Below are positions 9,966 to 14,807 of a stretch of 64,000 nucleotides of DNA, piece after piece. The first letter of the stretch is position 1. Every line of letters begins with the position of its first letter. Below the pieces are notes generated by a model. The model worked only from the letters and a program-made list of their open reading frames with translations. It ran no database searches and was not told where the DNA came from. Origin of the DNA: Paractinoplanes pyxinae (GTDB lineage: Bacteria > Actinomycetota > Actinomycetes > Mycobacteriales > Micromonosporaceae); assembly GCF_026626335.1 (NCBI RefSeq), contig NZ_JAPNTZ010000022.1, positions 62,001 through 126,000 of the forward strand. Direction: 5' to 3'. A program made the position numbers and the translations under genes.

Positions 9966-10489
9966 CGGCTGCGCTCCGAACCCGTACCGGGGAAGCACCG
10001 GAACCGCTTATCGGAGCAGCGCTCGATATCGATTTGGTGACGACGCTCGGCCCCGATCGAGTGGCCGCGCCTCTGGGCCGACCGGTCCCGCTCCCGGATC
10101 CTGGGACATGTCGATCTTGCCCAACCCGGGCGATCACTCCTGGCTGATCTTTCTCCTTCGGCGGACCGGCAGTGCGACCAGCCGCGGAACCGCCCAAAAT
10201 ATGATGATCTAGCTGCGCGAAACGGCTAATCGGCGACCCCGGCGGACCGTCGCACAGGGTGCCTCCGGCGGGGACGCCCGAACGGTCGGCCGGAACTGGC
10301 CGACTGCGGCGTGACCCGGCTCGATCTATTTCGTTACGTCACGCGTAGTGCTGTACGAAGTCAGACAATGTCCTCCGTCCGGGGTCGGCCGTGGCGCGTG
10401 GACGGTCACTGTCCGTTTCTACGATGGTCGGTGACGCTGTGATACGTCAGCATGAGACGCGACTTCCCAAAGGGGGCGGAGGTTCAACC
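9966..10489 (+). other. 524-nt gap upstream of the cyclase gene
   Basis: No gene can be supported here. It holds a lone good -10 hexamer TATGAT at 10200-10205 in an AT-richer stretch, without a clear -35, and a 7-bp inverted repeat GTCGGCC/GGCCGAC at 10285-10304. The hexamer TACGTC, followed by A, occurs at 10335 and again near 10443. A long leader or distant regulatory sites for the cyclase gene are possible. Confidence 0.4.
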
Positions 10490-13132
10490 GTGTCGGGACG
10501 GACCGAGCTGCCGAGCGGGCTGGTGACCTTTGTGTTCACCGACATCGAGGGCTCGACGCGGTTGGCCCGGATGCTCGGCGACGACTACGGCTCGGTCCTC
10601 GGCGATCACCGCTCCGTGATGAGGGCAGCGCTGAGTGACTTCGGCGGTGTCGAGCTCTTCACGGAGGGTGACAGTTTTTTCATCGCTTTTCAGGATGCGG
10701 GCGACGCGGTCGCGGCCTGTGTGGAGGCTCAACGGCAACTGTCCGCACATGAGTGGCCAAGCTCCGAGGTCGCTCCGAAGGTCCGCATGGGCATGCACAC
10801 CGGCCCGGCCCGGCCGGTCGGCAACGAGTACGCCAGCGCCGAAGTTCACCGGGCCTCCCGGGTCGCCTCGGCCGCGCATGGCGGACAGATCCTTTGTTCC
10901 GGGGCGACGATGCTGGCCGTCCTCTCCTCCGGCGCTTCTGTGCCTTTCGCCCTCACCGTCCCGGGTCCCAGCCAGAGCCCGCAAGGCGCCGACGTCGACC
11001 TGCTCGATCTCGGCCCGTACCGCCTGCGCGGCTTCGACGACGACGAGCGTCTGTTCCAGATCCTCGCGCCCGGCCTGGACCGTGACTTCCCCGCTCCACG
11101 TACGCCGGGCGCCGCCACCCACAACCTGCCGGCCCCACTCACCGCGTTCGTCGGCCGCCGGGCCGAGCTGGCCGAGCTGACCACCCTGGTCCACCGGCAC
11201 CGCATGGTCACCGTGGCCGGGCCCGGCGGCGCGGGCAAGTCGAGGCTGGCCCTCGCCGTGGCCGAGCACCTGCTCGAGGCGTACCCGCAAGGGGTTTGGA
11301 CCGTCGACGCGCAGGACGACCTGGCCCCCGCGATCGCCGCGGCCATGGGCGTACGCACCGAGCCCGGCCGTCCGATCTTCGAGACTCTGCTGGAGCATTG
11401 CGCCGACCGCCAGATGTTGCTCGTCCTCGAGACGGCCGACGCCGCGCCGGCCGCTTGCGCCACCCTGCTCCGCCGCCTGCTCGCCCGCTGCCCCCGTCTC
11501 GATGTGCTGGTCACCAGCCGGGTGCCGCTGAACGTGCCGGGCGAGGTCGTCTGGAATCTGCCCCCGCTGTCGCCGGCCGACGTGTTCGCGCTGCTCTCCG
11601 AGCGTACGGCCGAGGCTCGCGGCAGCCGCCCGGCTCCGGTCGAGGACCATGCCGATCTGGCCCTGGTCGCGGCCCGGCTGGAGGGTTCACCGCTGGCCGC
11701 CGAGCTGGCCGCGACCCGGTTGCGCTCGCTCTCGGCCGAGCAGCTGGCCGCGCGCCTCGACGATCCGCTGGCCGCGCTCGACCCGGTCAACGCCGACGCC
11801 GGGGAGAGGCACGGCAGCCTCACCGCCAACCTGGACTGGTCGTACCGGACGCTCAGCACCCCGGCCGCCGGTCTACTTCGCCGCCTGGCCGTCTTCGCCG
11901 GCACGGTCGATCTGGGCACTGTCGAGTGGTGCGGCGTCGAGGCCCTCGGCGCGCTCTCCGAGCTGGCCGACAAGTCGCTGATCGAGCTGGTGCCGGGCCC
12001 CCGCTACCGGCTGTCGGGCCAGGTCCGGGCGTACGCTTCCCGGCGTCTCACCGCGGCCGGCGACGAACGGGCCGCCCGCGACCGGCACGTTTCCTGGGCC
12101 CTGCACACGTTGGATTCGGTCGCGGTCGACACCGACGGCCAGCCGCGCACCACGTCGCTGACCGAGCTGGCGCCGTTCGTGCCCGAGTGGCAGACCGCGC
12201 TGCGCTGGGCGGCCGAGAAGGGCAGTGTCCGGTCCGGTCTGCGGCTGGCGCTCGCTCTCGACCCGTGGTGGCGTGAGCACGGCACGGCGGCGGAGGGCCG
12301 TGCCCTGCTGACCCGCCTCTACCAGCGGCTGGACGGGGTGGACGTCGAGCCGGCCGTTCTCGCGTACGCCCACCTGGTGCACGCCGGCCTGGCCGACGAC
12401 CGGACCGAGCGCACCCGCTTCCTCGATCGCGCCGAGCGGATCGCCCGCGCCGAGGAGGACCACGCGCTGCTGGTCCGCGCCCTGGCCGGGCATCGCAGCA
12501 CGTTGATCGAGGCCGGCCACTACGACCAGGCCGAGCGGCTGTGCCGCGATGTGATCGCCGAGGCCGACCGCTGCGGCGTTTCCGAGGCGGCCCTGCCCGC
12601 GGTGATCGCCCTGGCCGAGCTGCTGTGGCGCCGGGACGAGCTGACCTCGGCGGCCGAGTTGCTGGGGGCGGCCCGGCAGGCCGAGGCGAGCTGTCCCGAA
12701 CACCGGGGCAAGCGGACCGTCGACTGGCTGCTGGGCATGGTCGCGCTGCGCCGGGGCGACCTGGTGGCGGCACACGACCACCTGGTGGTGGCGCTGCGTT
12801 CGCGGCTGCGGCACGGGTTCAGCGGCGCGGCGGCCGACGCCGTGGCGGCCATCGCGGTGCGCTGCGCGCTCGGCGGCGACCTGACGACGGCCGCTGTGCT
12901 GTTCGGCGGGGCCGAGGCGGCACGGGGCGCCCGCCGGACGGAGATGTTCGGGCGCTTCTGGTCGTCCCAGCAACTTTCCCTGCGTACGGCGTTGGGAGAT
13001 GCCGCCTTCGACGTCGCCTACGCCGACGGGGTCGGTCTGGGCTTCGACCGGATCGTCGCCATGGCCTTGGCCGTCGAGCACCCCGACCTCGAGGACGGCG
13101 CCGCCCGTTTCGCGGGAACCCTGCGCGGCTAG
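10490..13132 (+). CDS. Class III nucleotide cyclase-like / NB-ARC ATPase (STAND) regulator
   Basis: 880 aa. Order: class III cyclase homology domain (about 1-170), AAA/NB-ARC ATPase (about 210-500, Walker A GPGGAGKSR, Walker B-like LLVLET), then helical TPR-like repeats to the end. There is no C-terminal HTH. In the cyclase domain one metal Asp is in FTDIEGST and the second in EGDSFF, but the adenine-recognising Lys is Phe (LFTEGD) and the transition-state Asn is His (EVHRASRV). Activity is doubtful, as for related mycobacterial proteins. GTG 10490 was chosen for the strong GGGCGGAGG 7 nt before it. The stop shares CTAG with the convergent gene. Confidence 0.82.
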   Translation: MSGRTELPSGLVTFVFTDIEGSTRLARMLGDDYGSVLGDHRSVMRAALSDFGGVELFTEGDSFFIAFQDAGDAVAACVEAQRQLSAHEWPSSEVAPKVRMGMHTGPARPVGNEYASAEVHRASRVASAAHGGQILCSGATMLAVLSSGASVPFALTVPGPSQSPQGADVDLLDLGPYRLRGFDDDERLFQILAPGLDRDFPAPRTPGAATHNLPAPLTAFVGRRAELAELTTLVHRHRMVTVAGPGGAGKSRLALAVAEHLLEAYPQGVWTVDAQDDLAPAIAAAMGVRTEPGRPIFETLLEHCADRQMLLVLETADAAPAACATLLRRLLARCPRLDVLVTSRVPLNVPGEVVWNLPPLSPADVFALLSERTAEARGSRPAPVEDHADLALVAARLEGSPLAAELAATRLRSLSAEQLAARLDDPLAALDPVNADAGERHGSLTANLDWSYRTLSTPAAGLLRRLAVFAGTVDLGTVEWCGVEALGALSELADKSLIELVPGPRYRLSGQVRAYASRRLTAAGDERAARDRHVSWALHTLDSVAVDTDGQPRTTSLTELAPFVPEWQTALRWAAEKGSVRSGLRLALALDPWWREHGTAAEGRALLTRLYQRLDGVDVEPAVLAYAHLVHAGLADDRTERTRFLDRAERIARAEEDHALLVRALAGHRSTLIEAGHYDQAERLCRDVIAEADRCGVSEAALPAVIALAELLWRRDELTSAAELLGAARQAEASCPEHRGKRTVDWLLGMVALRRGDLVAAHDHLVVALRSRLRHGFSGAAADAVAAIAVRCALGGDLTTAAVLFGGAEAARGARRTEMFGRFWSSQQLSLRTALGDAAFDVAYADGVGLGFDRIVAMALAVEHPDLEDGAARFAGTLRG

Positions 13133-13629
13133 CGGTCGCGCATCAAAGTGGCGGCCCGGTTGATGTCGGCCTGGCGGACGGCAGTCACCGAGCCGAAGAG
13201 GTACACCGCCTGGTAATAAGTCCAGGCCACGGTGTAACAAGCGGCCCGTACGGCGATGTGGTGCCGCACGCAGACGCGCTTCATGTCGGCGTAGAACGTG
13301 TCGTCCACGCGCGCCTTGTTGGCCCGGAACTGCCCCAGGTCTTTGTAGTTGCGGTAGCCGAAGTCGTGGTGCCGGCAGGCGATGGTGAAGTCGAACCCGA
13401 GCGGCCGTTCGGGGCTGGCCGAGCAGTCGTCGGTGGACCAGTCGAAGCCGTACTCCTTCCAGGGCCCCCGGTCGAGGCGGGCCGCGTTCCAGGCGGCGTA
13501 GCTGGCCTTGGTGGGTTGCGTCCAACCGGCCAGGACGGCCGGCTTGTCGGCGGTGGTGGCCCGGGCGATCCCGGCGGGGGCGACGAGAGCCAGCGCCAGG
13601 GCGAGGATGAGAACGATGCGTCGGGTCAT
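13129..13629 (-). CDS. Secreted prokaryotic phospholipase A2
   Basis: 166 aa from ATG 13629. A signal peptide (LILALALALVAPAGIARA) precedes a compact domain with the PLA2 Ca2+/His motif: DDCSASP, then CRHHDFGYRNYK carrying the catalytic His-Asp pair, and four further Cys-bearing positions for disulfides (VCVRHHI, AACYTV). It hydrolyses the sn-2 ester of phospholipids outside the cell, as the Streptomyces violaceoruber enzyme does. A longer frame to 13665 adds residues ahead of the signal peptide and is not favoured. The stop overlaps the cyclase gene by CTAG. Confidence 0.88.
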   Translation of the reverse strand: MTRRIVLILALALALVAPAGIARATTADKPAVLAGWTQPTKASYAAWNAARLDRGPWKEYGFDWSTDDCSASPERPLGFDFTIACRHHDFGYRNYKDLGQFRANKARVDDTFYADMKRVCVRHHIAVRAACYTVAWTYYQAVYLFGSVTAVRQADINRAATLMRDR

Positions 13630-13767
13630 GCCCGCAGTGTTCGAACCCGGTTCGGCCATATACAACGCCGTCTATCCCGCTTTTCCTAAGCGTGCCGAAC
13701 TGCGTAGTTGATGTTCCTGAACGATGATTAATGTGATGTCCTGGGTGGTCGTCCCAGCCTCGATCGC

Positions 13768-13782
13768 TATGGTGTCACCGTG
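13768..13782 (+). promoter_or_regulatory. Promoter of the uORF-kch transcript
   Basis: TATGGT (13768-13773) lies 6 nt upstream of GTG 13780, the leaderless spacing used across this window. It is the only good -10 between the two neighbouring genes. Confidence 0.45.
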
Positions 13783-13797
13783 CGGGTCGTCACATGA
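13780..13797 (+). CDS. Five-codon leaderless upstream ORF (MRVVT)
   Basis: GTG CGG GTC GTC ACA TGA. The GTG stands 6 nt after a -10 box and the TGA overlaps the K+ channel ATG as ATGA. The channel ATG itself has no Shine-Dalgarno sequence. The arrangement suggests that ribosomes load on the leaderless GTG and re-initiate at the channel start. Coding is inferred from this geometry only. Confidence 0.35.
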   Translation: MRVVT

Positions 13798-14807
13798 TCA
13801 ACATCCCCAAGGTCCGGCAGGGACCGCTGCGCGCGCTCGGCATCCGGCTGGCGCTCGCGATAACGCTCGTCCTGGTCACGGTCCTGGTCATCTACGCCGA
13901 CCGGGACGGCTACCGCGATGTCAACGAGGACGGGCTGACCCTGCTCGACTGCTTCTACTACGCGGTCGTGTCGCTCTCCACCACCGGGTACGGCGACATC
14001 ACGCCGTTCACCCCGCACGCCCGGCTGGTGAACGTCCTGTTCATCACCCCGGCTCGCGTGCTCTTCCTGATCATCCTGGTCGGCACCACCCTCGAGGTGC
14101 TCACCGACCAATATCGCAACAGCCTGCGGGTCAGCCGGTGGAGGCGACAGTTGAAGGACCACATCATCATCTGCGGTTACGGCACCAAGGGCCGGGCCGC
14201 CGTCGCCGCGCTGCTCGAGACGGGGTACGACAAGTCGCGGATCGTCCTGGTCGAGAGCCGGCCCGACGGCGTGCGCCAGGCCGTGGCCAACGGACTCGTC
14301 GTCATCGAGGGCAACGCCACCCGCTCCGCGGTGCTGCTCGAGGCCGACGTCAAGAACTGCAAGGCGGTCATCATCGCGACCGACACCGACGAGGCGTCGG
14401 TGCTGATCTCGCTGACCGTCCGCCAGCTCACCGCCGGCCAGGTGCGGATCATCGCCTCGGTCCGCGAGCAAGAGAACGCCGCCCTGCTCAAGCAGAGCGG
14501 CGCCCACCACGTCATTGTCTCGTCGGCCACCGCCGGCCGGCTGCTGGGCCTCACGACCACCGCGCCGCCGCTCATCGACGTGGTGGAAGACCTGCTCACT
14601 CCCGGTCAGGGCATGGCCCTGGCGATGCGCAGCGCCGAACGGGCCGAGGTGGGCCAGAACCCGCGCCAGCTGCAGACCCTGGTCGTCGCGCTGATCCGCC
14701 GGGGCAAGGTGCTGCCGCTGGGCGGCGAGCAGTCCGTCACCATCGAGACCGGCGACATGATCGTCTACATCCGCGACGAGAAGAGCGACGTCAACGTCGC
14801 CGTCTAG
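13794..14807 (+). CDS. Two-TM potassium channel with RCK (TrkA-N/TrkA-C) domains
   Basis: 337 aa. TM1 (about 15-37), pore helix and selectivity filter STTGYGDITP (about 62-71), TM2 (about 80-105), then a cytoplasmic RCK domain with Rossmann motif IIICGYGTKGRAAVAALL and a TrkA-C lobe ending near 337. It conducts K+ gated by ligand binding to the RCK ring, as in MthK-type channels. ATG 13794 has no ribosome-binding site and overlaps a short upstream ORF. The stop shares CTAG with the convergent methyltransferase. Confidence 0.9.
   Translation: MINIPKVRQGPLRALGIRLALAITLVLVTVLVIYADRDGYRDVNEDGLTLLDCFYYAVVSLSTTGYGDITPFTPHARLVNVLFITPARVLFLIILVGTTLEVLTDQYRNSLRVSRWRRQLKDHIIICGYGTKGRAAVAALLETGYDKSRIVLVESRPDGVRQAVANGLVVIEGNATRSAVLLEADVKNCKAVIIATDTDEASVLISLTVRQLTAGQVRIIASVREQENAALLKQSGAHHVIVSSATAGRLLGLTTTAPPLIDVVEDLLTPGQGMALAMRSAERAEVGQNPRQLQTLVVALIRRGKVLPLGGEQSVTIETGDMIVYIRDEKSDVNVAV

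Follow-up and report, generated by a model that had tools for sequence, protein, structure and literature searches.

In mycobacteria, a 5′ ATG or GTG has been described as both necessary and sufficient for leaderless initiation, and leaderless small ORFs that are coupled to the following gene by an RTGA overlap have been reported as over-represented (Shell 2015, PMC4633059). For Actinoplanes sp. SE50/110, 1179 leaderless transcription start sites (TSS) and the -10 motif TAnnnT have been reported, as well as an nGGAGn motif in 93.2% of the leadered transcripts with a 5′-UTR longer than 10 nt (PMC7682106). Tests of termination-reinitiation in Haloferax have indicated that a Shine-Dalgarno (SD) sequence is not essential for this process (Huber 2019, PMC6728339). 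In the open-licence literature no paper was found on a bacterial potassium channel with translational coupling to an upstream ORF, and none on a leaderless uORF of Micromonospora.

Here, the start region of a K+ channel gene located in a stretch of DNA of 64,000 nt (the window, i.e. the whole stretch that was analysed) was compared with the start regions of its relatives. The coupled mini-ORF architecture is not a new kind but joins the class described in mycobacteria (Shell 2015, PMC4633059); judged from sequence, the mini-ORF adds to this class of coupled leaderless small ORFs a new member with deep conservation. It shares with the mycobacterial cases a putatively leaderless RTG that opens an ORF of 5-50 aa, the TGA of which forms RTGA with the next start, and, as in some of these cases, a conserved architecture goes together with an unconserved peptide. 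It differs in that a single gene was tracked in another family, across 183 loci, that the window ORF, with 5 codons, is as small as the class allows, and that its apparent descent from an in-frame N-terminus can be seen. Moreover, TSS and ribosome occupancy were measured by Shell 2015, whereas here both are inferred, with TANNNT at 6-7 nt serving as a proxy for the TSS. With the overlapping pairs treated by Huber 2019 (PMC6728339) the locus has in common the ATGA overlap and a downstream translation that would be coupled to upstream termination; in the pairs reported there both partners are annotated genes, whereas here the upstream partner is an ORF of 5-21 codons with an unconserved peptide.

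Relatives sampled

The channel ortholog was present in all 67 genus genomes searched. The genus is taken to be near Actinoplanes and the family to be Micromonosporaceae. Within the family, 272 of 354 genomes, belonging to 17 of 44 genera, matched the channel at E ≤ 1e-90, and start regions were collected from 182 of these 272 genomes, covering all 17 genera. Of the resulting 183 loci, 68 lie inside the genus, where one genome contributes two, and 115 belong to other genera of the family. For the comparison outside this clade, 63 loci were used, namely 21 more distant family homologs and 42 loci from other families. The former consist of 16 loci from 59 family genomes chosen among those without a match at 1e-90, plus five genus paralogs, and the latter are part of 147 genomes with matches. 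Among plasmid records, 76 had channel matches, none of them at an identity of at least 60%.

The channel start in the window

The channel gene (13794..14807, + strand) encodes a two-TM K+ channel of 337 aa with a TrkA-N/RCK domain. Both domains of an Ion_trans_2 plus TrkA_N K+ channel exceeded the Pfam gathering score (Ion_trans_2, PF07885, 6.8e-13, 48.7 bits at a cut-off of 22.5; TrkA_N, PF02254, 4.8e-27, 95 bits at a cut-off of 23.8). In the list of ORFs, the ATG at 13794 is the first start of this reading frame after the preceding stop. Upstream of it on the same strand, a -10 box TATGGT (13768..13773), which follows the TANNNT motif common to the relatives, is separated by the 6-nt spacer GTCACC (13774-13779) from a GTG (13780-13782), the first base of which (13780) is the predicted TSS. 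This GTG opens the candidate leaderless mini-ORF GTG CGG GTC GTC ACA TGA (MRVVT*, 13780..13797), and its TGA (13795-13797) overlaps the channel ATG (13794-13796) in the tetramer ATGA (13794..13797). A preliminary description of this DNA had named the -10 box, the 6 nt, the GTG, the peptide MRVVT and the ATGA overlap, and direct reading of the sequence found all of them correct; its five-codon uORF stands for the window and not as a family-wide length, which ranges from 5 to 21 codons in the relatives.

The spacing of 6 nt, which had been described as the one used for many leaderless starts of this genome, holds within the window, where TANNNT is commonest at this distance. The count covered 51 long GC3-biased ORFs, picked by a crude filter and not by a gene finder, with 390 candidate in-frame starts between them; the motif was found six times at 6 nt, twice at 7 nt and three times at 8 nt, and no more than twice at any of the remaining spacings from 0 to 19 nt. 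Inspection by eye gave no -35 matching nTGACn at the usual distance from the -10 box of the channel. A conserved block, TGATGTCCTG (13734..13743, + strand), is located about 24-25 nt upstream of the -10; it occurs with 0-2 mismatches in 48 of the 67 coupled loci of the genus, where it begins 34 or 35 nt before the -10, and these counts favour near relatives because the motif was taken from the window. The block is perhaps an activator site, and it lies too far upstream for a -35.

The closest upstream gene, a putative phospholipase A2 with the prokaryotic phospholipase A2 domain PF09056, is divergent and lies on the opposite strand (13129-13665, - strand), so that the channel transcript is expected to begin in the short gap that contains the -10 box. 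Further upstream, a large cyclase/AAA-ATPase gene is located on the + strand (10391-13132). A survey of the window for coupled mini-ORFs returned, besides the channel mini-ORF, one weak candidate at the start of the latter gene with a spacing of 5 nt, TACGAT-5-GTG ACG CTG TGA, which lies inside its N-terminal region and is possibly due to chance. Downstream of the channel, a gene of the S-adenosyl methyltransferase family (PF04672; 14804-15745, - strand) is convergent with it; their stop-codon ends share four bases (14804-14807).

Conservation of start, frame and junction

The arrangement in which TANNNT is followed after 6-7 nt by a GTG, and the mini-ORF runs without interruption into the RTGA of the channel, was found in 174 of the 183 loci and in 14 of the 17 genera (67 of 68 loci in the genus, 107 of 115 outside it). 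The spacing between TANNNT and GTG is 6 nt in 164 and 7 nt in 10 of these coupled loci. The mini-ORF starts with GTG in 174/174 and is interrupted in 0/174 cases, and the junction tetramer is always RTGA (GTGA in 120 loci, ATGA in 54). With 5-21 codons, the mini-ORFs of the relatives lie within the range of the small ORFs of Shell 2015 (5-50 codons, ATG or GTG start), the TGA being placed inside the RTGA of the downstream start in the same way (ATGA in the window; 174/174). The five-codon form is the shortest seen and occurs in two genera (g1 and g7). The A of RTGA is contributed by an Ile at channel codon 2, which could be conserved for protein reasons.

The distance from the GTG to the channel start is 14 nt in 53 loci, 32 nt in 49, 35 nt in 42, 17 nt in 20, 20 nt in 6, 29 nt in 3 and 62 nt in 1 (L239, counted among the 174), and all of these distances equal 2 mod 3. 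On a FastTree tree of this one protein, in which the loci are related and 81 of 195 inner branches are open, parsimony gave 15 length changes; this number fell to 13 and 10 when branches with support below 80 and 95, respectively, were collapsed. All length changes are multiples of three; if indels ignored the frame, the probability that all of them keep it would be about (1/3)^10 to (1/3)^15. When the frame was left free and the spacing fixed at 6-7 nt, 182 RTG or TTG codons were obtained in 178 of the 183 loci, of which 174 stop in RTGA, seven share the frame of the channel (those of L119, L121 and L240, plus four additional, more distal ones in coupled loci) and one, in L244, is in the third frame. 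The preliminary description had named a non-conserved uORF frame as an observation that would refute it; the frame into RTGA is kept in 174/183 loci over at least 10-15 length changes.

Loci lacking the arrangement

Nine of the 183 loci have no coupled mini-ORF (L065, L073, L104, L109, L119, L121, L238, L240 and L244). In L119 and L240, TANNNT is located 7 nt directly before the channel's own start, i.e. the channel is predicted to be directly leaderless. L121, which forms the deepest branch of the clade with moderate support (95, SH-aLRT 85 in the better model), has a predicted leaderless GTG in frame with the channel that gives an 11-codon extension, and L073 carries AGGAGG before the channel start and no mini-ORF. 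The GTG is replaced by GTA in L065, with an in-frame GTG six bases upstream, by GTC in L109 and L238, with the frame kept, and by GAC in L104 and L244. L244 has one base fewer than L104, and its frame is lost, which would not be surprising once no start codon is present. L104, L109 and L238 each contain an in-frame ATG within the former -10, 12 bases upstream, which could open the ORF only with transcription starting still further upstream; inspection of the start regions identified no clear substitute start route in L065, L104, L109, L238 and L244. Five of the seven loci of genus g13 are exceptions (L104, L109, L238, L240, L244), and L098 and L236 are intact. This genus loses the mini-ORF in several ways, by mutation of the start, loss of the frame, or a deletion that would leave the channel directly leaderless.

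Initiation at the channel gene

The best reading of the locus, to which we assign a probability of about 0.85, is leaderless initiation at the mini-ORF, followed by termination and re-initiation at the channel. The conserved -10 geometry suggests that transcription starts at or beside G13780; the mRNA would then begin with GUG and, by analogy with mycobacteria, the ribosome would initiate without a leader. After translation of five codons it would terminate at the UGA within AUGA, and the terminating ribosome or its 30S subunit would shift back to the overlapping AUG and re-initiate on the channel. The mini-ORF would thus be a device that relays or delivers ribosomes to a channel lacking an SD of its own. 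As far as the comparison reaches, this interpretation, which had been put forward in the preliminary description, is supported, and translation of the channel would on this account depend on re-initiation.

The earlier observation that the channel start has no ribosome-binding site was borne out, as SD pairing in the relatives equals the shuffled level. The best anti-SD duplex at the window start has -3.7 kcal/mol (17 nt at -20 to -4), and the median for the 174 coupled loci is -6.6 compared with -6.5 for shuffled sequence. One of the tetramers GGAG, GAGG or AGGA is present between -16 and -4 in 58/174 coupled loci and a five-letter SD match in 10/174, so that some relatives may add SD initiation.

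The GGAG-like tetramers in these 58 relatives would also suit a very short untranslated leader, in which the transcript would begin at G13780, the GTG would be unused and initiation would occur directly at the ATG at 13794 behind a leader of 14 nt. Untranslated leaders of about 14 nt exist, which counts in favour of this explanation. It is nevertheless very unlikely, since it accounts neither for a distance that stays at 2 mod 3 through 10-15 length changes, nor for the invariant GTG as first codon in the coupled loci, nor for the lack of SD enrichment.

Codon changes and peptide drift

In the four length groups, the numbers of changes at codon positions 1/2/3 of the mini-ORF are 14/19/13, 5/19/11, 13/55/38 and 51/86/58. 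Second positions change more than third positions in all four groups, and therefore no ordinary selection for the amino acid sequence is visible. First positions change less than both others in three of the four groups, and per column in all four, and the base use is coding-like, with 48% G at position 1 and 83% G+C at position 3. Owing to the slow first positions and this base use, a weaker constraint on codons is conceivable, and some constraint on the codons of the mini-ORF may exist. The locus follows the pattern of Shell 2015 in that the architecture is kept, with the frame maintained over 10-15 length changes, and the peptide diverges.

Leaderless regulatory uORFs have been proposed in mycobacteria (PMC4633059), and the smaller number of changes per column at first codon positions would agree with a regulatory leader peptide or attenuator, where the peptide would stall the ribosome on a signal and thereby repress or release the channel. 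However, the peptides vary in sequence and in length (5-21 codons), with second positions changing more than third, so that neither the regulatory codons nor the peptide of an attenuator are conserved. Moreover, no single-amino-acid run common to the listed peptides was seen by eye, and the 14 nt from GTG to channel start in the window leave little room for an attenuator hairpin. The attenuator reading was rejected as highly unlikely on account of the peptide drift. A drifting peptide combined with the retained GTG, frame and RTGA rather suggests that the mini-ORF acts as a ribosome relay.

Origin of the mini-ORF

In the distant family homologs L152-L172 (42-48% identity), TANNNT-6/7-RTG is found in the channel frame in 21/21 loci. 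L168-L172 represent a second channel, 43-45% identical, which is present in 5/67 genus genomes and has TANNNT-6/7-RTG in frame in 5/5 cases. In the loci from other families, an in-frame start codon is located upstream of the aligned start in 42/42, and in-frame TANNNT-5/8-RTG is present in 8/42 and absent in 34. Judged by domain type, the mycobacterial channels MchK (MSMEG_1945) and Rv3200c and C. glutamicum CglK (PMC9025972) are taken to belong to the same K+ channel family as the window channel. None of the 42 other-family loci with their in-frame upstream starts is coupled. Over the whole outside-clade comparison, a coupled mini-ORF was found in 0/63 loci.

Given the in-frame extensions in homologs outside the clade, a frame change is the probable origin of the mini-ORF. 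In the simplest history, an ancestral channel with an N-terminal extension, leaderless at least in this family, underwent such a change, by which the extension would have become the mini-ORF and one codon of the earlier protein the new channel start. As the in-frame motif is carried by only 8/42 other-family loci, the case for a leaderless in-frame ancestor is based chiefly on L121 and the 21 loci of the family. The probable source of the mini-ORF is the in-frame N-terminal part of such a channel, a polarity with moderate tree support.

The same in-frame extensions in homologs outside the clade and in its deepest member, L121, would be compatible with a programmed -1 frameshift, in which a ribosome coming from the GTG slips before the TGA and produces an N-terminally extended channel. 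The codon before the TGA varies (ACA, CCA, AAA, CAG, CGG and others), and consequently no conserved slippery site is kept; moreover, the junction contains an ATG or GTG in 174/174 coupled loci. Because of this variability of the junction the frameshift reading was rejected and is hardly credible. A chance alignment of GTG and ATGA, for which it can be said that one five-codon ORF arises easily at random, has a practically negligible probability and is refuted by the conservation of the arrangement in 174/183 loci.

Implications of the proposed coupled start

The coupled leaderless mini-ORFs of mycobacteria are known from RNA and ribosome data, and the importance of the coupling was left as a proposal there (PMC4633059). 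At the channel locus, frame, start and junction persisted through at least 10-15 length changes and the peptide drifted, which constitutes evolutionary evidence that coupling is selected, and the channel mini-ORF stands out by how clearly its conservation can be shown. The five-codon mini-ORF may represent a practical lower limit of size, and a gene finder ignoring such short ORFs would presumably record a leader of 14-35 nt. The natural variants at the locus, which are in-frame leaderless, directly leaderless or AGGAGG-bearing, allow testing why the gene uses a relay.

Intracellular K+ affects ribosome stability. It is conceivable, and on balance unlikely, that most members of the clade have fixed an obligatory two-step start, the output of which would depend on RRF/IF3 recycling and possibly on intracellular K+. 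If such a two-step start were true, the channel would be translatable under reduced SD-dependent initiation, and the mini-ORF would be a built-in feedback on channel dose.
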